DNA of 64,000 nucleotides from an uncultured Phycicoccus sp. (GTDB lineage: Bacteria > Actinomycetota > Actinomycetes > Actinomycetales > Dermatophilaceae). This document shows, in pieces, positions 2,040 through 13,304 of the stretch. The notes beneath the pieces were generated by a model that did not search any database, had not been told where the DNA came from, and saw nothing but the letters and a program-made list of their open reading frames with translations. The first letter of the stretch is position 1; every line of letters begins with the position of its first letter. The DNA lies in assembly GCF_947495705.1 (NCBI RefSeq), contig NZ_CANLZR010000006.1, forward strand, positions 1 through 64,000. The letters run 5' to 3'. Made by a program: the position numbers and the translations under genes.

Positions 2040-2984
2040 ATGCTGACCCGCCGCCTCGGGGCCACCGGGCTCACCGTGTCGCGGCTCGCCCTCGGGACGA
2101 TGGCCTGGGGCACCCGCACCTCCCCCGAGGACGCCCGCGACCTCCTCACCGCGTTCCGGGCCGCCGGGGGCACCCTCGTCGACACCGCGCACGGCTACGC
2201 GGGCGGTGCGGCCGAGGACCTGCTCGGCGACCTGCTCGAAGGGCCCGACCGGGGCGAGGTCGTCATCGTCACCAAGTCCGGCATCAGCCGCGCCTCGGGT
2301 GAGCGCGTAGTCGACTGCTCCAGGCGCACGATGCTCGCGCAGCTCGACCTGTCGTTGCGGCGCCTGCGCACCGACCACGTCGACGTCTGGCTCGCCCACA
2401 CCTGGGACGACGACACCCCGCTCGAGGAGACCGTCGGCGCCCTCGTCCACGCCTGGCGCAGCGGTCGCGCACGCTACGTCGGGGTGTCGAACCACGTCGG
2501 CTGGCAGGCGGCCCGCGCGATGTCGCTCCTGGCCGCCGAGGGCGTCCCGCTCGCCGCGAACTCCGTCGAGTACAGCCTCGTCGAGCGGCGCCCCGAGCGT
2601 GAGCTCGTCGCCGCGTCCGCCTCCCTCGGCTTCGGGCTGCTCCCCTGGTCCCCGCTCGGCCGCGGGGTCCTCGCGGGGCGCTACCGCACCGGCGTCCCCG
2701 CCGACTCCCGCCTCGCCTCGGACGAGTTCGCTCGGTTCACCGGCCGGCACGCCGGGGACCACACCAAGGGCGTCGTCGAGGCGGTGCGTACCGCGGCCGA
2801 CGGGCTCGGGGTCTCACCCGCCGTGCTGGCCCTCACCTGGGTCCGCGACCGACCCGGGGTCACCGCGCCGATCATCGGCCCCCGCACGGCCGCCCAGCTG
2901 GCGGTCCTCCTGACGTCCGAGGAGGTCGAGCTGCCGCGGCAGATCATCGACGCCCTCGACGAGGTCTCGCTCGACCACTCCTGA
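2040..2984 (+). CDS. Aldo/keto reductase
   Basis: The 314-residue protein is an AKR-superfamily NADPH-dependent reductase with a TIM-barrel fold. The catalytic tetrad is visible: Asp48 (V-D-T-A), Tyr53 (H-G-Y), Lys79 (V-T-K-S) and His120 (L-A-H-T). The C-terminal NADP-binding segment with P-I-I-G-P-R is present. The frame stays open far upstream, but ATG 2040 was chosen because similarity to AKR proteins starts there (L-x2-R-x-L-G-x-T-G) and a -10 hexamer sits just before it. It is monocistronic and faces the acidic-tail gene. The substrate is unknown; the subgroup resembles the general oxidoreductases acting on carbonyls. Confidence 0.93.
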   Translation: MLTRRLGATGLTVSRLALGTMAWGTRTSPEDARDLLTAFRAAGGTLVDTAHGYAGGAAEDLLGDLLEGPDRGEVVIVTKSGISRASGERVVDCSRRTMLAQLDLSLRRLRTDHVDVWLAHTWDDDTPLEETVGALVHAWRSGRARYVGVSNHVGWQAARAMSLLAAEGVPLAANSVEYSLVERRPERELVAASASLGFGLLPWSPLGRGVLAGRYRTGVPADSRLASDEFARFTGRHAGDHTKGVVEAVRTAADGLGVSPAVLALTWVRDRPGVTAPIIGPRTAAQLAVLLTSEEVELPRQIIDALDEVSLDHS

Positions 2985-3005
2985 CGAGCGGCGCGGCCGG
3001 CCGGC

Positions 3006-3365
3006 TCAGTCGTCCTCGTCGTCCTCGAAGTCGACGTCGTCGCCGTCGAGGCCCGCGTAGGTCCGGCTGTCGTCGCCGTCCTCGTCGTCGTGGTCGTCGA
3101 CGCCGTCCTCGTCGTCGTCGTCGTCATCGTCGTCGTCGTCGTCGTCATCGTCGCCGTTGTCGTCGGCACCGTAGATGTCGAGCGGCGTCATCTCGCTGTA
3201 GGCCTCGTACAGCGAGGCGTCGTACTCCTCGAACGCGTCGGCCAGGTCGTCGTACGCGGCGACGACGTTCGGGTCGTCGTCCCCGCGGCGCGTGCTGCAC
3301 ACCTCGAGGTGGCGCTCGAACGCCGAGATGAGCTGGGCCAGAGCGGCACGCGGATCCGTGGTCAT
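3006..3365 (-). CDS. Small protein with poly-aspartate C-terminus
   Basis: This is a 119-residue protein of unknown function. Residues 1-70 look like a helical domain. The C-terminal 50 residues are almost entirely Asp/Glu, including a run of 14 Asp encoded by a GAC/GAT triplet repeat. The long acidic tail suggests an intrinsically disordered, DNA-mimic-like or cation-binding segment, but no family function is recognised. A TACGGT hexamer lies 7 nt before the ATG, so it is probably leaderless. The start overlaps the promoter area of the divergent DUF5703 gene. Acidic actinobacterial proteins of this type are sometimes labelled primosomal, without evidence I can see here. Confidence 0.7.
   Translation of the reverse strand: MTTDPRAALAQLISAFERHLEVCSTRRGDDDPNVVAAYDDLADAFEEYDASLYEAYSEMTPLDIYGADDNGDDDDDDDDDDDDDDEDGVDDHDDEDGDDSRTYAGLDGDDVDFEDDEDD
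3111..3152. repeat. GTC/GAC trinucleotide microsatellite inside the acidic-tail gene
   Basis: Fourteen consecutive triplets, twelve GTC and two ATC on the + strand, read as fourteen Asp codons on the minus strand. Repeat-unit changes would stay in frame and alter only tail length. Confidence 0.9.
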
Positions 3366-5190: not shown

Positions 5191-6690
5191 TCAGCCGCCG
5201 ACGTAGGTGTCGACCGCGTCCGAGAAGCCCTGGACGAGCGGGTCGAGCCGGGCGCTGCCCTCGGCGGGGATGACGCCCTCGTCGACGGCCTCGCGGTAGT
5301 CCTCGAGCAGGGAGTCCCGGGCCTCGACGAGCGCCTCCTGGTCGTCCTCCCGCAGGGCCTTGTCGACGTCCTTGAGCGGGTCCTCGACCGTCTTGGCGCC
5401 GTCCTTGTCGATGACGTCCTCCTGCTGGAGCGCCTTGACCTCCTCGCCCAGCGCCTGCCGGGCGTCGGCGACCGGGGCCGGGTCCGGCGCCTCCTCGGTG
5501 GGCGTCGGCGAGGGCTCGGTCGTCGACGGGGTGGGCTCCGGCTCGGTCGTCGACGGGGCGGGCTCCGGGGACGTCGCCGTCGGGGTCACCGACGGCGCCG
5601 GCTCCCCACCCGTGTCGTCCCCACCGAAGACCTGCCACGCGACGAGAGCGAGCGCCAGCAGCGCCGCGGCGGCCAGGACCCACAGCGCCGCCGAGGACCC
5701 GCCACGGGCCCGCTCCGGGGGCGGCAGCGCCGTCGACGGCGACGTGGGCGGCGGCGGTGGCGGCGCGGGAGTGGGGTCGAGGCGCTGGGTCGGGTCCGCG
5801 CCGGAGGCCGGCAGGACGGACGTGGCCGCCGCCGCTGCACCGGCCGCAGCGGCTCCCGACGGGGCACGTCGCGACGCGAGCGCGGTGACGAGGGCCGCGG
5901 CGTCCTCGGGGCGGTCGGCGGGGTCCTTGGCGAGCAGCCCCCGCACGACCCCCACGAGCCAGGCGGGCGCGTCGGGGCGCAGCGCCTGCAGGTCGGGGAC
6001 GGGGTCGTTGGCGTGCATCATCATCGTCGCCACGGGGGTGGCGCCGCGGAAGGGGGCCTTCCCGGTGAGCAGCGCGAACAGGACGCAGCCGAGCGCGTAG
6101 AGGTCGGCGCGACCGTCGACCCGCCCGCCCGTGGCCTGTTCCGGGGCGAGGTACTCCGCGGTGCCCATGACGGTGTGCGTGGCGGTCAACGCCTGCTCGG
6201 CGCCGGCCTCCCCGAGCTGGGTGATGCCGAAGTCGACGACGCGCACGCGGTCGTCCGCGGCGTACACGAGGTTCGCCGGCTTGATGTCACGGTGCACCAG
6301 CCCCCGCCGGTGCGCCGCGTCCAGGGCGGAGGCGACCTGCCGGCCCACCTCGACGACCTCCTCGACGGGCAGCGGCCCCTCGGCCAGGCGGTCGGCCAGG
6401 CTCGGGCCGGGCAGCAGCTCCATGACGAGGTAGGCGGTGTCGCCCTCGACGCCGGTGTCGTGGACGGTCACGATGTTGGGGTGGCTCATCCCAGCGGTGA
6501 CCTTCGCCTCCCGCTCGAACCGGGCCGCGCCGCTCTCGTCCGGCACCCGCCGCAGGTCGATGGTCTTGATCGCCACCTGGCGGCCGAGGACGGTGTCGGT
6601 GGCCCGCCAGACCTCTCCCATGCCGCCCCGGCCGATGGGAGTGTCGAGGACGTAGCGGTCCGCGAGAGGGCGCGTGTCGTCGGTGCTCAC
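5191..6690 (-). CDS. Membrane-anchored PknB-like Ser/Thr protein kinase
   Basis: The 499-residue protein has a cytosolic Hanks-type kinase domain (about 13-272): glycine loop G-R-G-G-M-G-E-V, Lys42 in V-A-I-K, H-R-D at 133-135 with K-P-A-N, D-F-G at 153-155 and A-P-E at 182-184. A Pro/Ala-rich linker (275-330) leads to one transmembrane helix (about 334-356). An extracellular part follows: a Thr/Pro/Glu-rich stalk and a helical domain of roughly 100 residues. That domain is not PASTA, so the ligand is unknown. GTG 6690 was chosen because it lies 7 nt after TAGGCT and directly precedes the kinase fold. It diverges from the HipA-like kinase gene across 66 bp. Confidence 0.92.
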   Translation of the reverse strand: MSTDDTRPLADRYVLDTPIGRGGMGEVWRATDTVLGRQVAIKTIDLRRVPDESGAARFEREAKVTAGMSHPNIVTVHDTGVEGDTAYLVMELLPGPSLADRLAEGPLPVEEVVEVGRQVASALDAAHRRGLVHRDIKPANLVYAADDRVRVVDFGITQLGEAGAEQALTATHTVMGTAEYLAPEQATGGRVDGRADLYALGCVLFALLTGKAPFRGATPVATMMMHANDPVPDLQALRPDAPAWLVGVVRGLLAKDPADRPEDAAALVTALASRRAPSGAAAAGAAAAATSVLPASGADPTQRLDPTPAPPPPPPTSPSTALPPPERARGGSSAALWVLAAAALLALALVAWQVFGGDDTGGEPAPSVTPTATSPEPAPSTTEPEPTPSTTEPSPTPTEEAPDPAPVADARQALGEEVKALQQEDVIDKDGAKTVEDPLKDVDKALREDDQEALVEARDSLLEDYREAVDEGVIPAEGSARLDPLVQGFSDAVDTYVGG

Positions 6691-6697
6691 CCACGGC

Positions 6698-6703
6698 AGC
6701 CTA
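6698..6703 (-). promoter_or_regulatory. Predicted -10 (TAGGCT) of the Ser/Thr kinase gene
   Basis: TAGGCT on the minus strand with a 7-nt gap to GTG ending at 6690. It faces the promoter of the HipA-like gene within a 66-bp intergene. Confidence 0.55.
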
Positions 6704-6744
6704 GTGACGAGGTGCTCCCGGTCGGCACCGAGGACCGGCATCGC

Positions 6745-6750
6745 TAACCT
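6745..6750 (+). promoter_or_regulatory. Predicted -10 (TAACCT) of the HipA-like/DUF3037 operon
   Basis: TAACCT with a 6-nt gap to GTG 6757. No ribosome-binding site lies between them, so the operon is probably leaderless. Confidence 0.6.
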
Positions 6751-6756
6751 GGGGGC

Positions 6757-7521
6757 GTGCTCGAGACCGTCACCGCCGTCCGGTACGTGAGCCCGCTCCG
6801 CGAGGGCGGCTCGCTGCCGGGGCTCGTCGAGGCCGACGACCTCGGCACGTACGTCGTGAAGTTCAGCGGCGCCGGCCAGGGCCGCAAGGTCCTCGTCGCC
6901 GAGGTGATCGTCGGGGAGATCGCGCGCCGGCTCGACATCCCGACGCCGCGACTGGCCGTCGTCGACCTCCCGAGCGCCATCGCCCGCTACGAGGCCGACG
7001 AGGAGGTCCAGGACCTGCTCACCGCGAGCCCGGGGCACAACCTCGGCGTCGACTTCCTCCCCGGTGCGTTCGGCTACGACGGGTCCCGCCCGCCGACGGC
7101 GCAGGACGCCGGCGCGATCCGCTGGCTCGACGCCTACACCGCCAACGTCGACCGCACCTGGGCCAACCCGAACCTGCTCGTCTGGCACGGGCGCACCTGG
7201 GCCATCGACCACGGCGCCGCGCTGTGGTTCCACCACGCGTGGCCCAGCCGGCCCCCGGACGTGGGCCGGTTCGTCGGCCAGCCGTTCGACGACAGCGGCC
7301 ACGTCCTGGCCCCGGTGGCGGCCCCGTTGCGCGAGACGCACGACCGCCTCGCACCCCGGCTCACCGCGGACGTCCTGCGCGACGTCGTCGCCGAGGTGCC
7401 CGAGCAGTGGCTCGAGACCACGGCGAGCCTGCCCGACCTCGACACGGTCCGGGCCACCTACCTCGAGCACCTCGTCCTGCGGCTCGAGCAGCCCGACGCC
7501 TGGCTCGGAGGTGCCGCATGA
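6757..7521 (+). CDS. HipA-like kinase domain protein
   Basis: The 254-residue protein is a short relative of the HipA Ser/Thr kinase fold. A candidate ATP-binding Lys35 sits in Y-V-V-K-F with Glu49 behind it. The catalytic loop N-V-D-R-T-W-A-N-P-N supplies Asp132 and Asn137/139. A metal-binding Asp151 sits in A-I-D-H-G. All the residues expected of an active kinase are therefore present. It lacks the N-terminal subdomain of classical HipA, and there is no hipB-like helix-turn-helix gene next to it. Its TGA overlaps the ATG of the DUF3037 gene as ATGA, so the two are translationally coupled. Targets and phenotype are unknown. Confidence 0.85.
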   Translation: MLETVTAVRYVSPLREGGSLPGLVEADDLGTYVVKFSGAGQGRKVLVAEVIVGEIARRLDIPTPRLAVVDLPSAIARYEADEEVQDLLTASPGHNLGVDFLPGAFGYDGSRPPTAQDAGAIRWLDAYTANVDRTWANPNLLVWHGRTWAIDHGAALWFHHAWPSRPPDVGRFVGQPFDDSGHVLAPVAAPLRETHDRLAPRLTADVLRDVVAEVPEQWLETTASLPDLDTVRATYLEHLVLRLEQPDAWLGGAA

Positions 7522-7895
7522 GCCACCCCTACCAGTACGTCGTCATCCGCTTCGTCCCGCGCGTCGACCGGGGCGAGTGCCTCAACGTCGGGGTCGTGCT
7601 GCACTCCCAGTCCGCCGGGGTGCTCCAGTGCGCCTGGCACGTCGACGACGACCGCATCCGCGCGGTCGCTCCCGACGCCGACCTGGAGGTGCTGCGGGCG
7701 GCCCTCGACGCCGTCGCCGAGATGTGTCACACCCCACCCCCGGGCGTCGACGCGACGCTGACGACCCAGGGCAAGCGCTTCGGCTGGCTCAGCGCCCCCC
7801 GCTCGACGGTGCTGCAGCCCGGCCCGGTCCACGGGGGCGCCACCGACGACCCGGACGCCGAGGTGCAGCGACTCCTCGACCGCCTCGTCCGCTAG
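7518..7895 (+). CDS. DUF3037 family protein, partner of the HipA-like kinase
   Basis: The 125-residue protein has the DUF3037 signature: an opening Y-Q-Y-V-V-I-R-F-V-P strand, then G-E-x-L-N-V-G-V-V-L, and a C-terminal helix with P-D-A-E-V-Q-R-L-L-D. There is no transmembrane segment or DNA-binding motif. The family is uncharacterised but recurs beside short HipA-like kinases, which points to a substrate, inhibitor or adaptor. That role is inferred from linkage only. The ATG lies inside the stop of the kinase gene. It ends in a TAG that shares CTAG (7892-7895) with the convergent methyltransferase gene. Confidence 0.85.
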   Translation: MSHPYQYVVIRFVPRVDRGECLNVGVVLHSQSAGVLQCAWHVDDDRIRAVAPDADLEVLRAALDAVAEMCHTPPPGVDATLTTQGKRFGWLSAPRSTVLQPGPVHGGATDDPDAEVQRLLDRLVR

Positions 7896-8720: not shown

Positions 8721-9437
8721 GGCCAGGGCCGCGCGGGCGATGACGGTGAGCCCCGCCACGACGCAGAACGCGAGGACGGCCCGGCGGAAGAGGCCTTCGT
8801 CGACCCGGGCCCGGACGGGCGCGGCCGCGGCGTACCCGAGCAGGGCGAAGGGCACCCACACCAGGTCGGTGAGGAGCTGCTCGCGCGTCACCGCGCCCCA
8901 GACGGCCAGCCCGCCCACCGCCAGCAGCGAGCCGGCCGTGAAGAAGACCGCGAGGGTCGAGCGCGCCCGGTCGGGGCGCTCGTGCTGCAGGACGAGCGCG
9001 AGGAACGGGCCCCCGATCGCGGCCGCCGTGCCCGAGACGCCGGACACCGCCCCGGCGACGACGGCGTTGCGCGGGGTGGCCCGCAGGTGGAGGGACCGCA
9101 CGGACAGCACCACCGTGACGAGGATGAGCACCCCGACGAGGGCGCCGATCGCCCGGGGCGAGAACCACACGACGATGGCGACCCCGACCGGGACGAACAG
9201 CGCGCGGGCGCCGAGCGCCCAGCCCAGGGGCCGCCACGCGATGTCGCGGACGCCGTGCGTGAGCTGGAGCAGCGGCAACGTCACCCCGGGGACGAGCAGG
9301 GCCGCCGGCATGAGCTCAGGGGCCAGGAGCACGACGGCCGGGGCCGCGACGACAGCCATCCCGAACCCGATGCTCGACTGCACGACGGCGCCGCCGAGCA
9401 CCGCCACCCCGAGGGTGAGGACGACCGGCCAGTCCAT
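8718..9437 (-). CDS. TauE/SafE family membrane permease (second of pair)
   Basis: The 239-residue protein is almost entirely hydrophobic, with seven or eight predicted membrane spans. It shows the repeated small-residue motifs of the sulfite/organosulfonate exporter family TauE/SafE, such as G-x-V-V-Q-S-S-I-G-F-G-M near residues 16-27 and S-G-V-S-G-T-A-A-A near 135. Members move sulfite, sulfoacetate or related anions across the plasma membrane. Its ATG overlaps the stop of the upstream paralogue by one base (TGATG), so the two are co-translated. The substrate is unknown and no sulfur-metabolism gene adjoins. Confidence 0.85.
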   Translation of the reverse strand: MDWPVVLTLGVAVLGGAVVQSSIGFGMAVVAAPAVVLLAPELMPAALLVPGVTLPLLQLTHGVRDIAWRPLGWALGARALFVPVGVAIVVWFSPRAIGALVGVLILVTVVLSVRSLHLRATPRNAVVAGAVSGVSGTAAAIGGPFLALVLQHERPDRARSTLAVFFTAGSLLAVGGLAVWGAVTREQLLTDLVWVPFALLGYAAAAPVRARVDEGLFRRAVLAFCVVAGLTVIARAALA

Positions 9438-10210
9438 CAGGGGAAGAGGACGAGCTTGGCGACGGCGACGAGTCCGACGACGACGATGACGCCCCGCAGG
9501 ACCGGGGTCGGGAGCCGCCGGCCGACGGTGGCGCCGACGACGCCCCCGACCGTCGCGCCAACGGCGATGAGGAGCACGACGACCCAGTCGATCCGGTCGG
9601 GCGCCACGACGATGAAGACGAGCGCCGCGACTGCGTTGACGACCGTCCCGAGGACGTTCTTGTAGCCGTTGAGGCGCTGCAGCGGCTCGCTCGACAGGGC
9701 GCCCAGGATGCCCATGAGGATGACGCCCTGAGCCGCCCCGAAGTAGCCGCCGTACACCCCGGCTCCGAGGATCCCGCCGCGCATGACGAGGAGGTGGGTG
9801 CGTTCGGACCCGTCGCCGGACTCGCGGCGGCGCAGCGCCCAGGCGTTGACCCGCGGCCCGACGAGGACGAGGACGACCCCGAGGAGGATGAGCACCGGGA
9901 CCACGGTGCGGAACACGGCGGGGTCGAGCACGAGCAGCAGGACGGCCCCGCCGAGCGCACCGACGAGGGACATCGGCACGAGCCGGCGCAGCGCGGGCGC
10001 CGCCCCGGCGAGCTCGGCGCGGTACCCGACGGCCCCCGTGAGGCTGCCGGGGACGAGCCCGATGTTGTTCGAGATGTTGGCCGTCACGGGCGGCACCCCG
10101 AGCAGCAGCAGGGTCGGGAAGGTGAGAAGCGTCCCCGACCCGACGATGGTGTTGATCGTGCCCGCCCCGATGCCGGCGAGCACGACGAGGAGGGCTTCAC
10201 CGACGGACAC
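9437..10210 (-). CDS. TauE/SafE family membrane permease (first of pair)
   Basis: The 257-residue protein is a TauE/SafE-type permease with about eight membrane spans. The N-terminal family repeat is visible as A-G-T-I-N-T-I-V-G-S-G-T-L-L-T-F-P, followed by A-N-I-S-N-N-I-G. GTG 10210 lies 6 nt after a TAGGGT -10 and sits inside one arm of a 12-bp inverted repeat, which suggests regulated expression. It overlaps the next permease gene, and the two similar-sized paralogues could form a heteromeric transporter. The substrate is not identifiable; anion or sulfite export is the family default. Confidence 0.88.
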   Translation of the reverse strand: MSVGEALLVVLAGIGAGTINTIVGSGTLLTFPTLLLLGVPPVTANISNNIGLVPGSLTGAVGYRAELAGAAPALRRLVPMSLVGALGGAVLLLVLDPAVFRTVVPVLILLGVVLVLVGPRVNAWALRRRESGDGSERTHLLVMRGGILGAGVYGGYFGAAQGVILMGILGALSSEPLQRLNGYKNVLGTVVNAVAALVFIVVAPDRIDWVVVLLIAVGATVGGVVGATVGRRLPTPVLRGVIVVVGLVAVAKLVLFP

Positions 10211-10257
10211 CCGGACACCCTATGTCCGGGTGTCCGGGTGTTCGGGTGTCGGTGTCC
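10205..10257. promoter_or_regulatory. Inverted repeat plus octamer repeats over the permease promoter: candidate operator
   Basis: A perfect 12-bp inverted repeat (10205-10216 with 10224-10235, 7-nt spacer) is centred on the TAGGGT -10 at 10217-10222 and covers the start codon. The octamer TCCGGGTG follows twice (10225-10240), then a one-mismatch copy (10241-10248) and a partial one, covering the -35 area. This is the layout expected of a repressor site. Confidence 0.6.
10217..10222 (-). promoter_or_regulatory. Predicted -10 (TAGGGT) of the permease operon
   Basis: TAGGGT on the minus strand, 6 nt before GTG ending at 10210, inside the spacer of the inverted repeat. Confidence 0.6.
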
Positions 10258-10267
10258 GCGAACGGAC

Positions 10268-11428
10268 TCAGCGGTCCGCGGGGGGCTCCTCCGCAGGTGC
10301 CGCGGGGGGCGGCGGCGGGGTCTGGGCGGGCGGCGCCTGGCGCGGCGGGACCGCGTCGGCCCCGGGCCGCACCGGCGGCTGGACCCGTGACGCCGGCTGC
10401 GCGTGCTCCTCGGCCTCCTTGCTGGACTGCGCGGCCTGGCCCCGGGCCTCCGCCAGCGCGGTGGCCGGGTCGGCGAGGGTGGTCTCCTCGAAGGCGTTGC
10501 TGATGGCCTGCTCGGGCTCCACCCAGTCGTCGTCGTCGCCGTCGGCGCCGGGCTTGGTGGCACCGAGCGCGCCGCCGATGCCCCGCAGGGCGTCGGTGAG
10601 CTCGCTGGGGATGATCCACATCTTGTTCGAGTCGCCACGGGCGATCTGGGGCAGCACCTGAAGGTACTGGTAGGCGAGCAGCTTCTGGGTCGGCTTGCCC
10701 CGGTGGATCGCGTCGAACACCTGTTGGATGGCCCGCGCCTGGCCCTGGGCCTCGAGGATGCGGGCCTGGGCCGAGCCCTCGGCGCGCAGGATCTGGCTCT
10801 GCTTCTCACCCTCGGCGGTGAGGATCTGGCTGGCCTTGGAGCCCTCGGCGGTGAGAATGATGGCGCGGCGCTCCCGCTCGGCCTTCATCTGCTTCTCCAT
10901 CGACTCCTGGATCGAGGCCGGCGGGTCGATCGCCTTGAGCTCGACCCGGTTGACGCGGATGCCCCACTTGCCGGTGGCCTCGTCGAGGACCCCGCGCAGC
11001 TGGCCGTTGATCTGGTCGCGGCTCGTCAGGGTCTGCTCGAGGTCGAGGGAGCCGATGACGTTACGCAGCGTCGTCACCGTGAGCTGCTCGATGCCGGCGA
11101 TGAAGTTCGCGATCTCGTAGACCGCCGACTTGGCGTCGATCACCTGGTAGTAGATGACGGTGTCGATGGACACGACGAGGTTGTCGCTGGTGATGACCGG
11201 CTGCGGCGGGAACGAGACGACCTGCTCACGCAGGTCGATGTTGGCCCGGACGATGTCGACGAACGGGACGAGGAAGTGCAGCCCGCCGGTCAGGGTCCGC
11301 GAGTACCGGCCCAGCCGTTCGATGATGAGCGCCGTCTGCTGCGGCACGATCCGCACCGTGCGGACGAGCACGATGACGGCGAACGCCGCGAGCAGCAGGA
11401 TGACGATGAGCGGACCGATGCCGTCCAT
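10268..11428 (-). CDS. SPFH/Band 7 (stomatin-like) membrane protein
   Basis: The 386-residue protein has an N-terminal transmembrane helix (about 5-25) and a Band 7/SPFH domain (about 28-200) opening with R-I-V-P-Q-Q-T-A. A long charged helical region (E-R-E-R-R-A..., A-E-G-E-K-Q) follows, typical of stomatin oligomerisation, and then a Pro-rich tail from about 330. SPFH proteins form large ring assemblies in membranes and usually act with NfeD partners. Here the NfeD gene lies 33 nt upstream on the same strand, supporting a membrane-quality or microdomain complex. A-A-A-G-G ribosome-binding bases sit 7 nt before the ATG. Confidence 0.93.
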   Translation of the reverse strand: MDGIGPLIVILLLAAFAVIVLVRTVRIVPQQTALIIERLGRYSRTLTGGLHFLVPFVDIVRANIDLREQVVSFPPQPVITSDNLVVSIDTVIYYQVIDAKSAVYEIANFIAGIEQLTVTTLRNVIGSLDLEQTLTSRDQINGQLRGVLDEATGKWGIRVNRVELKAIDPPASIQESMEKQMKAERERRAIILTAEGSKASQILTAEGEKQSQILRAEGSAQARILEAQGQARAIQQVFDAIHRGKPTQKLLAYQYLQVLPQIARGDSNKMWIIPSELTDALRGIGGALGATKPGADGDDDDWVEPEQAISNAFEETTLADPATALAEARGQAAQSSKEAEEHAQPASRVQPPVRPGADAVPPRQAPPAQTPPPPPAAPAEEPPADR

Positions 11429-11461
11429 GGTGGAGCCTTTCCGTGAGCGCCGGAGCGCGGG

Positions 11462-11929
11462 TCAGGTGGTCGGGGTGGCTGGGGGCACGGGCGCGACGAT
11501 GGCGGTCGCCCCGTGGATGGCGATGACACGCACCTGGTCGCCGGGCTCGACGGGTGTGCTGCCGGTGGCGAGACGGGCCGACCAGGTCTCGCCGGCGAGC
11601 TTGACCCGGCCGTCGGTCTCGGTGACGGCCTGGAGGACCCAGGCCTCGCGCCCGACGAGGCTCGAGGCACCGATGTGGTGGTCGGTCTCGGTGTCCATGA
11701 ACTTGCTCTTGAGGATGGGGCGCACGACGAGGAGGAAGAGCACCGCCGCGGCGACGCCGATGATCACCTGGAAGATGAACGGCGCGCCCAGGGCGGCGGC
11801 GATGGCGGCCGCCAGCGCTCCCCCGGCGAACATGACGAACACGAAGTCGACCGTAGCGGCCTCGATCGCCGCCAGGACCAGCGCGACCCCGAGCCAGCCG
11901 AGCCAGGCGTTCTCGGTCAGCCACTCCAT
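11462..11929 (-). CDS. NfeD family membrane protein
   Basis: The 155-residue protein has two or three hydrophobic helices (about 8-75), including the G-W-L-G-x-A-L-V-L-A-A-I-E start typical of short NfeD proteins. A C-terminal OB-fold (about 88-150, from V-G-R-E-A-W-V to V-x-V-I-A-I-H-G) follows. Short NfeD proteins lack the ClpP-like protease domain and partner with SPFH proteins, consistent with the gene immediately downstream. A G-G-G-G-A ribosome-binding site precedes the ATG, so unlike many neighbours this unit has a leader. Confidence 0.9.
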   Translation of the reverse strand: MEWLTENAWLGWLGVALVLAAIEAATVDFVFVMFAGGALAAAIAAALGAPFIFQVIIGVAAAVLFLLVVRPILKSKFMDTETDHHIGASSLVGREAWVLQAVTETDGRVKLAGETWSARLATGSTPVEPGDQVRVIAIHGATAIVAPVPPATPTT

Positions 11930-11989
11930 CGGCTTCCCCTTTCCGTTATCGGTCCGACGTGTGGGGACCGGGTGAAGTTCCGCCGGTGC

Positions 11990-12772
11990 TCAGCGCGCCC
12001 GGGCGGCATAGCGACCCCCGCGCACTTCCAGCTCCAGGGGCATCCCGAAGGTCGCCTCGAGGTTGCGCTCGGTGAGCGTGATCTCGAGGGGGCCCTGCGC
12101 GACGATCCGGCCCTCCCGCATGAGGAGGACGTCGGTGAAGTTCGGGGGGATCTCCTCGACGTGGTGGGTGACGAGGACGAGGGCCGGGGCGGTGAGGTCG
12201 GCGGCGAGGTCCCCGAGCCGGCGCACGAGGTCCTCGCGCCCCCCGAGGTCGAGCCCGGCGGCGGGCTCGTCGAGGAGCATGAGCTCGGGGTCGGTCATCA
12301 GCGCCCGGGCGATCTGGACACGCTTGCGCTCACCCTCGGACAGGGTGCCGTAGCGGCGGTCGACGAGGTGGCTCGCCCCGAGCGCGTCGAGCAGCTCGGC
12401 GGCGCGGCCCTCGTCGAGCCGGTCGTAGGCCTCCCGCCAACGGCCCACGACCCCGTAGGAGGCCGTGACGACGACGTCGCGCACGAGCTCGCGGGCCGGG
12501 ATGCGGTCGGCGAGGGCCACGCTCGACAGCCCGATGCGCGGACGCAGCTCGAAGACGTCGACGGCGCCGAGCACCTCCCCGAGCACGCCGGCGACGCCGG
12601 TGCTCGGGTGGATCCGCGCGGCGGCGAGCTGGAGCAGCGTCGTCTTGCCCGCCCCGTTGGGCCCGAGGACGACCCAGCGCTGGCCCTCCTCGACCTCCCA
12701 CGAGACGTCGTCGAGGATCGTGGTGTCCCCGCGCACGACGCTGACGCCTGCGAGGGCCAGGACGTCGCTCAT
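11990..12772 (-). CDS. ABC transporter ATP-binding protein (stand-alone)
   Basis: The 260-residue protein is a single nucleotide-binding domain: Walker A G-P-N-G-A-G-K-T at 37-44, signature L-S-E-G-E at 144-148, Walker B L-M-L-L-D-E-P at 164-170, and an H-loop T-H-H-V-E-E-I-P-P. The Glu-Glu-Ile-Pro segment after the switch His resembles the YlmA/iron-type ABC ATPases of actinobacteria. No permease gene adjoins, so its membrane partner, if any, is elsewhere. The ATG lies 7 nt after TAGGGT. Substrate unknown. Confidence 0.9.
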   Translation of the reverse strand: MSDVLALAGVSVVRGDTTILDDVSWEVEEGQRWVVLGPNGAGKTTLLQLAAARIHPSTGVAGVLGEVLGAVDVFELRPRIGLSSVALADRIPARELVRDVVVTASYGVVGRWREAYDRLDEGRAAELLDALGASHLVDRRYGTLSEGERKRVQIARALMTDPELMLLDEPAAGLDLGGREDLVRRLGDLAADLTAPALVLVTHHVEEIPPNFTDVLLMREGRIVAQGPLEITLTERNLEATFGMPLELEVRGGRYAARAR

Positions 12773-12779
12773 GGAGCCG

Positions 12780-12785
12780 ACCCTA
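12780..12785 (-). promoter_or_regulatory. Predicted -10 (TAGGGT) of the ABC ATPase gene
   Basis: TAGGGT on the minus strand with a 7-nt gap to the ATG ending at 12772. Confidence 0.6.
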
Positions 12786-12818
12786 GTTGACGCTCCCCGA
12801 ACCGGATCGGCGGCACGC

Positions 12819-13304
12819 TCAGTGCCCGCGCATCGGTCCGCCGGGACGGCCGTGGGCGTCGGCGACGATCTCGGCCATGACCGACAACGCGATCTCGCCG
12901 GCCGAGCCGCCCCCGATCGACAGACCCGCCGGTACATGGAGGCGCGCCAGCTGCGCGTCGTCGAACCCCTCGGCCCGCAGCATCTCGAGCAGCGCCGCCG
13001 AGCGGTGCCGGCTCGCCATCATCGCCACGTACGGGACCCCGGCGGTCATGGCCCGCCGCAGCAGGTCGTACGCACCCGCACCGTCGTGGTTGCACACGAC
13101 GAGCGCGTCGACGCCGTCCATCGCGCCGGGGTCGTCCCCGGCGGGCGCCGCCGCCAGGGTGGTCACCGCCCAGCCGGTCGCCCCGGCGATGGCGCCCAGC
13201 GCGGAGGCGATGTGGTTGTCGAAGACGACGACGAGCCGACCGAGCGGGCCGTCGACGGGCCTCGCTCCGCTCCCCCGGACCGGGTCGTGGCGGGTGTCGC
13301 TCAC
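12819..13304 (-). CDS. XdhC C-terminal (Rossmann) domain protein
   Basis: The 161-residue protein matches only the C-terminal NAD(P)-binding-like half of XdhC/CoxI molybdenum-cofactor insertion factors. It shows D-A-L-V-V-C-N-H-D, then Y-V-A-M-M-A-S-R-H-R, G-F-D-D-A-Q-L-A-R-L-H-V-P-A-G-L and E-I-A-L-S-V-M-A-E-I-V-A. The N-terminal XdhC domain with its Cys is absent, so it may not bind molybdenum cofactor in the usual way. The GTG start overlaps the glgA stop as GTGA, implying translational coupling to glycogen synthesis. No xanthine dehydrogenase genes are nearby. Function uncertain. Confidence 0.8.
   Translation of the reverse strand: MSDTRHDPVRGSGARPVDGPLGRLVVVFDNHIASALGAIAGATGWAVTTLAAAPAGDDPGAMDGVDALVVCNHDGAGAYDLLRRAMTAGVPYVAMMASRHRSAALLEMLRAEGFDDAQLARLHVPAGLSIGGGSAGEIALSVMAEIVADAHGRPGGPMRGH

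Follow-up and report, generated by a model that had tools for sequence, protein, structure and literature searches.

A resident HipA_2 kinase-DUF3037 gene pair of Dermatophilaceae as a probable relative of the HipAD toxin-antitoxin system

The analyzed stretch of DNA (the window) comprises 64,000 nucleotides of contig NZ_CANLZR010000006.1 from an uncultured Phycicoccus sp. of the family Dermatophilaceae. Its forward strand carries a gene for a HipA_2 (PF20613) kinase of the HipA/PI4K fold (positions 6757 to 7521, GTG start, 254 amino acids [aa]) and a DUF3037 (PF11236) gene (7518 to 7895, 125 aa), with the kinase stop codon and the DUF3037 start codon joined in an ATGA overlap (7518 to 7521, + strand) at which translational coupling is expected. 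Both the open reading frames (ORFs) and the Pfam matches agree with the original prediction of a HipA-like kinase gene overlapping a DUF3037 gene in this way. A -10-type box of the TANNNT pattern, TAACCT (6745 to 6750, + strand), precedes the start codon of the kinase by 6 bases. A PknB-like Ser/Thr kinase gene (5191 to 6690, - strand; Pfam) starts at 6690 and diverges from the pair over 66 bp, as predicted, and a gene for a SpoU-family rRNA methylase (PF00588; 7892 to 8707, - strand) converges on the pair and marks the conserved locus. These two neighbors are regarded as context and not as parts of the system.

The window's genome contains a single HipA_2 match and a single DUF3037 match, and the pair matches the two profiles of the PADLOC system PDC-M66, the kinase being named PDC-M66A and the partner PDC-M66B. 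With a PF20613 score above the curated cutoff (E value of 2.4e-12 and 47.1 bits versus 27) and with the Lys, the catalytic Asp, and the metal-binding Asn and Asp intact, the kinase is classed as a member of the HipA_2 family by its sequence. In a quick tree of 40 kinases, in which deep joins lie on long branches and the order is unsure, 24 short-form kinases and four unpaired copies from Streptomyces-like genomes (an inferred label) fall on one side of a starred branch with a support of 97 and a length of 2.77; the short side also has a single long-form kinase, from Pseudorhodobacter, attached at its base. The length of the partner tracks the clade, being 122 to 142 aa in 21 short-form proteins and 270 to 284 aa in all 11 long-form ones. 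The window pair is placed by these comparisons in a separate "short" clade, in which the partner lacks the C-terminal half of HipD, the long-form partner.

All of the kinase residues named in the original prediction (Lys35, Asp132, Asn137/139, and Asp151) are present in the window protein. K35, D132, N139, and D151 are identical in the 28 short-clade kinases (24 paired and 4 unpaired copies); in the long form, D132, N139, and D151 occur in 11 of 11 kinases and K35 in 9 of 11. N137 is invariant across one 50-row alignment and is replaced by Ser in one unpaired Streptomyces-like copy. The positions common to the 28 short-clade and 11 long-form kinases include G17, K35, E49, D125, N130, D132, R133, N139, D151, and H152. 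Residue 19, beside the presumed Gly-rich loop, is Ser in 28/28 short-clade kinases and Thr in 10/11 long-form kinases. An AlphaFold2 model of the kinase built from 50 of the 81 available alignment rows had a pLDDT of 94.1, and its closest solved fold was Helicobacter CtkA (3akk; Z of 16.4 over 211 residues, root mean square deviation [rmsd] of 3.2), with lower values for PI4KII-alpha (Z of 13.3) and Shewanella HipA (4pu4; Z of 11.1 over 185 residues, model residues 16 to 253 on HipA residues 149 to 428). Because HipA aligned only from residue 149, its N-terminal subdomain has no counterpart in the window kinase. The conserved residues together with the predicted kinase fold indicate that the protein is probably an active enzyme.

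The partner matches PF11236 with an E value of 1.6e-38 and 131.9 bits (cutoff of 22.6) over profile positions 1 to 118 of 118, and it is identified by this match as DUF3037 across the full domain; its PDC-M66B match covers only profile positions 2 to 128 of 281. The DUF3037 model was built from 64 of the 81 available rows, L160, L199, L210, and others being left out because their starts had been badly placed by script, and it had a pLDDT of 86.5, with residues 71 to 100 uncertain (57 to 65 per block of ten). Conservation peaks in blocks 11 to 20 and 91 to 100 (mean commonest-residue frequencies of 0.82 and 0.83, respectively), the latter of which lies within the uncertain stretch, while the first part of that stretch (71 to 90) is poorly conserved. 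Residues 85 to 112, a range picked after inspection, average 0.80, compared with 0.61 elsewhere. Ser96 is identical in the 21 short-form proteins compared and aligns to Glu in 10 of the 11 long-form proteins. No Foldseek match below an E value of 0.95 and no clear solved-structure match were obtained for the predicted DUF3037 fold, the best being VIA with a Z of 3.7. The conserved segment may be the part of DUF3037 that acts on the kinase.

The pair had also been predicted to stand behind its own promoter. A scan for sigma-70 consensus promoters and for terminators gave no match, but the TAACCT box is conserved in relatives and is the probable leaderless promoter of the pair. With the first choice of starts, a TANNNT box was found 5 to 9 bases before the kinase start, nearly always at 6 to 7 bases, in 30 of 33 loci (the window, 31 family loci, and 1 other), compared with an expectation of about 0.003 per gene; the count rose to 31 of 33 once in-frame starts up to 20 codons away were allowed, and it was 46 of 80 in named loci with script-chosen starts. 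No such box precedes DUF3037 in any of the 33 loci. Other genes of the locus with the box are those for TSUP2 (25/27), the PknB-like kinase (11/13), the methylase (13/28), and an unmatched small protein (13/13), and it is missing before the SPFH (0/19) and NfeD (0/20) genes. Leaderless-type starts thus appear to be common at the locus, with one predicted for the kinase and none for DUF3037, as coupled translation of DUF3037 would predict. The same 4-base overlap occurs in 29 of the 33 loci and in 60 of the 80 named loci, the starts of which were chosen by script. Toxin-antitoxin transcripts of Mycobacterium tuberculosis are predominantly leaderless according to the accessible text of PMC8485053, which offers an analogy for the window pair.

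In the window, the PknB-like gene has its own leaderless-type box, TAGGCT (6698 to 6703, - strand), 7 bases before its start, and the boxes of the two kinases stand back-to-back within the 66 bp between positions 6690 and 6757. The proposed control of two kinases by one region is a local arrangement, and in the window each gene has a -10 box of its own. Of the 31 family loci, 12 have a PknB-like match upstream, in 11 of them with no called gene between; 10 of these 11 belong to the window's genus and 1 to another genome. The PknB-like kinase strongly matches the PADLOC PD-T4-6 profiles (best E value of 2.8e-102), a match that was not counted as evidence of a defense locus because these profiles may be general ones for Ser/Thr kinases. 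A SpoU-type methylase gene is found downstream of the pair, either next to it or no more than about 5 kb away, in 29 of the 31 family loci (the window's own aside).

Of nine window ORFs near the pair that were scanned with Pfam, seven matched families, namely, a peptidase, an rRNA methylase, two TauE transporters, Band 7, NfeD, and an ABC transporter, and two had no family match. No helix-turn-helix or HipB-type match was found among these nine ORFs, in agreement with the predicted lack of a hipB-type antitoxin, and the window's genome has no classical HipA_C (PF07804) match. Among adjacent-gene proteins of the family loci, 9 of 10 scanned match ordinary families, one of them an integrase, and the sole PADLOC match among 8 scanned is a weak SduA match on a response regulator. 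The integrase is of the phage type and comes from a single family genome, where its gene is directly upstream of the pair (L062, positions 5742 to 7007). In locus L070, from the window's genus, genes for a PAS hybrid histidine kinase, a molybdopterin-oxidoreductase-like protein, and a response regulator are inserted between DUF3037 and the methylase (9029 to 13147), and L077 and L081 carry inserts of similar size.

In a first sample, which included the window's genome, DUF3037 was present in 32 of 36 genomes of the family, compared with 1 of 22 genomes belonging to the same order but to other families. In a larger sample of the family, DUF3037 was found in 93 of 119 genomes and HipA_2 in 94 of 119, each pair being single copy. 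All 93 genomes with DUF3037 also had HipA_2, adjacent in 92 and split over contigs in 1; the HipA_2 matches of a further family genome, G369, were weak and partial only (29.1 and 23 bits). The 26 genomes without DUF3037 include one-contig assemblies of 99 to 100% completeness, and DUF3037 is therefore dispensable. In 13 family genomes without DUF3037, the 1.5-kb stretches flanking the methylase gene contained neither gene, and 11 of the 13 keep another window neighbor there, which points to joint absence of the pair.

HipA-like kinases standing apart from DUF3037, which would speak against the coupling originally proposed, were a minority at the level of the phylum. Across 296 phylum genomes, all 41 DUF3037 matches (40 genomes) lay beside HipA_2, and 41 of the 50 HipA_2 matches (43 genomes) adjoined DUF3037. 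The nine others were six second copies in Streptomyces-like genomes, one at a contig end (G207), and two weak partial matches (G208 and G197). Among named relatives, which number at least 587 and include Tetrasphaera, Janibacter, Austwickia, Mobilicoccus, Nocardioides, Actinomadura, and Streptomyces, DUF3037 was directly downstream in 80/80 of the best 80. No natural HipA_2-DUF3037 fusion occurred among 239 loci. The extra HipA_2 copies were found in 6 of 8 Streptomyces-like genomes, and the kinase is therefore not absolutely tied to DUF3037. Second copies at L139, L142, L146, and L148 retain the main kinase residues, have a longer C terminus, and lack an adjacent DUF3037 gene; the gene downstream on the opposite strand presumably encodes malate synthase. 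In the kinase tree, the unpaired Streptomyces-like copies branch beside a paired copy from Streptomyces (support of 85, not starred).

Both genes are under purifying selection, with median dN/dS values of 0.20 for the kinase and 0.23 for DUF3037 in 55 same-genus pairs. For 24 genomes with all four genes (L092, from another family of the same order, was left out), the tree of the pair shared 7 of 21 splits with a tree of two neighbor genes, compared with a mean of 0.13 and a maximum of 3 after shuffling. No supported split of the pair tree conflicted with one of the neighbor tree, and the kinase tree alone had one supported conflict. The mirror-tree partial correlation of the pair was 0.44 to 0.64, depending on the choice of controls, and values for neighbors were similar (0.48 to 0.62 for kinase and methylase), so that co-evolution values do not set the pair apart from neighboring genes.

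The original prediction regarded the pair as uncharacterized and of a new type. This view was rejected because PADLOC and published relatives already contain the pairing; the system corresponds to PDC-M66, or HipAD. PMC12548924 and PMC13092281 are cited below for the accessible parts of their texts. The E. coli prophage system DS-6, renamed HipAD, has a partner consisting of DUF3037 and DUF1829, an AlphaFold3 interface between kinase and partner with an ipTM of 0.76 to 0.79, and a kinase mutant that loses defense (PMC13092281); the primary HipAD paper is that of Brenes and Laub (2025), and the record of phage PhiR5_1 (PV340545.1) annotates a HipA toxin and a HipD antitoxin. In Retron-Sda1, deletion of HipA abolishes defense and deletion of DUF3037 is toxic, and the HipA/DUF3037 pair defends without the retron, with DUF3037 neutralizing the kinase (PMC12548924). 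By analogy, the earlier idea that DUF3037 may be a neutralizer fits these genetic data (PMC12548924 and PMC13092281). The DUF3037 of PMC6711988 was set aside, as the accessible text uses the name for IPR022542, in the ARM-repeat protein RST1 and Focadhesin.

In HipAD, as in the window pair, the gene for a HipA_2 kinase precedes and overlaps a DUF3037 gene, and the catalytic and DUF3037 signature residues are shared. However, the C-terminal part of HipD (about 150 aa, DUF1829 in the accessible text of PMC13092281) is missing from the 125-aa window partner; DUF1829 was not reported by Pfam in the long-form partners scanned. The Retron-Sda1 pair has the same two domains as well, but it belongs to a retron operon and its DUF3037 has a C-terminal region resembling a retron DNA-binding protein (PMC12548924), both of which the window lacks. 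Classical HipBA shares the kinase fold, as seen with Shewanella HipA, whereas the window has no HipB found, no N-terminal HipA subdomain, and no HipA_C, and the overlapping partner is DUF3037. The minimal kinase CtkA, the top fold match, is of comparable compact size but has 10% identity to the window kinase. The string "Actino" is absent from the main text of one of PMC12548924 and PMC13092281 and occurs once, in a reference title, in the other. A literature search found no paper on actinobacterial HipAD or HipD members and, supplements and subscription papers aside, no description of a resident, short, near-fixed actinobacterial clade.

HipAD is carried by phages and plasmids, and the phage HipAD DNA matches 283 of 5,426 E. 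coli genomes, in every case on the chromosome, whereas the window pair occupies a conserved chromosomal locus. In counts that compare loosely, because query reach differs and contig scans rest on short peptide patterns, the phage kinase query matched 34 viral contigs, 3 of 50,697 phage records, and 23 of 72,556 plasmid records (the partner was read in part of these, and that from Peribacillus had none), and the short-form queries gave no kinase from viral contigs in a pattern scan, 1 weak DUF3037 match in viral contigs, 6 (kinase) and 7 (DUF3037) matches in plasmid records, some chromosome-like or long form, and 2 matches in phage records, both long form. The long form is mobile, and the short form is a conserved chromosomal resident. 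The prophage or plasmid carriage of HipAD therefore has no parallel in the window pair, given its conserved neighborhood and the lack of short-form kinases from viral contigs. Likewise, the pair as a mobile defense gene in the window's genome is not favored by the conserved locus, the presence in 93/119 family genomes, the congruent trees, and the ordinary neighbors.

The pair is probably a vertically inherited resident that is related to the HipAD (PDC-M66, DS-6) kinase toxin-antitoxin and in which DUF3037 restrains the kinase. HipA_2 would act as an ATP-dependent protein kinase with the HipA/CtkA/PI4K fold, and coupled translation of the same leaderless message would yield DUF3037, which would bind the kinase and keep it off; upon loss, titration, or modification of the partner, the kinase would phosphorylate a cell target, and growth would slow or stop. 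The window pair displays the gene structure, the catalytic residues, the predicted fold, the strict pairing, the joint absence, the conserved locus, and the conserved promoter box. Kinase-dependent phage defense and toxicity upon removal of DUF3037 come from relatives (accessible parts of PMC12548924 and PMC13092281), and the short form may share by analogy their working mode, with its target, its trigger, its leaderless message, and its use in phage defense or stress control inferred. Pairing, joint absence, purifying selection, the catalytic core shared with the long form, the fold, the PADLOC matches, and the published genetics argue for a relative of HipAD. The long branch between the short clade and the long form, the missing C-terminal half of HipD, the extra HipA_2 copies of Streptomyces-like genomes, and mirror-tree values no higher for the pair than for its neighbors argue against it, as does the occurrence of only one copy, at the same locus, in about 78% of family genomes, since mobile toxin-antitoxin genes usually behave otherwise.

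An alternative is a housekeeping signaling pair, in which HipA_2 is a regulatory kinase of normal Actinomycetota physiology and DUF3037 is its activator, adaptor, or substrate and not an antitoxin; the mobile HipAD would then be a toxin version derived from it, or the derivation would run the other way. This possibility, which we consider rather unlikely, draws on the near-core, single-copy distribution at a conserved position, the congruence with neighbors (7 of 21 splits versus a shuffled maximum of 3, no supported conflict of the pair tree), the ordinary families of 9 of 10 adjacent-gene proteins (though one is an integrase), the few plasmid records and the lack of short-form kinases in the pattern scan of viral contigs, and the HipA_2 copies without DUF3037 in Streptomyces-like genomes. 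However, the homologous pair is toxic upon deletion of DUF3037 (PMC12548924, accessible text), an inhibitor would give strict co-occurrence too, the 26 of 119 family genomes without DUF3037 make it dispensable, and the kinase tree alone has its one supported conflict. That the pair is instead a resident phage-defense module, fixed in the lineage and aborting infection through kinase release like HipAD, appears unlikely: the PADLOC matches and the defense demonstrated for relatives (accessible parts of PMC12548924 and PMC13092281) are set against the conserved locus and near-core distribution, the weak SduA match as the sole PADLOC match among 8 adjacent-gene proteins, and the position of the phage HipAD relative in the long form. 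It is more speculative still, and quite doubtful, that the short pair is a resident Actinomycetota growth-control switch distinct from phage defense, with mobile HipAD as its long sister form, and that DUF3037 residues of about 91 to 107 (APRS96T...PGPVHGG) act on the kinase active site with Ser96 as a phosphorylation switch. In GC-rich DNA, chance ORFs that overlap one another are frequent, but DUF3037 as an unrelated passenger ORF overlapping the kinase gene is scarcely conceivable given its 131.9-bit match, and it is refuted by adjacency in three samples (80/80 of the best 80 of at least 587 relatives, 41/41, and 92/93).

The pairing of kinase and DUF3037 is already known from mobile toxin-antitoxin systems that act against phages, and what differs here is its simpler form as a fixed, single-copy resident. 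HipAD has so far been a defense toxin-antitoxin associated with prophages or retrons (accessible parts of PMC12548924 and PMC13092281), and the near-fixed short pair is a minimal version in which the control of the kinase by DUF3037 can be studied. It also raises the question of whether a defense toxin was domesticated for housekeeping or, conversely, a resident regulator became a weapon, and it suggests a likely function class for genes annotated as "HipA family kinase" or "DUF3037" in Streptomyces, Nocardioides, Actinomadura, and others.

Two plasmid loci depart from the usual gene order. On the Peribacillus plasmid (L296, positions 2486 to 3262), HipA_2 has no DUF3037 annotated beside it and adjoins glycosyltransferase and dTDP-rhamnose genes. 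On a Leptolyngbya plasmid (L235, 3742 to 4414), DUF3037 is preceded by only a C-terminal stretch of HipA_2, possibly a case of kinase decay with the partner kept.
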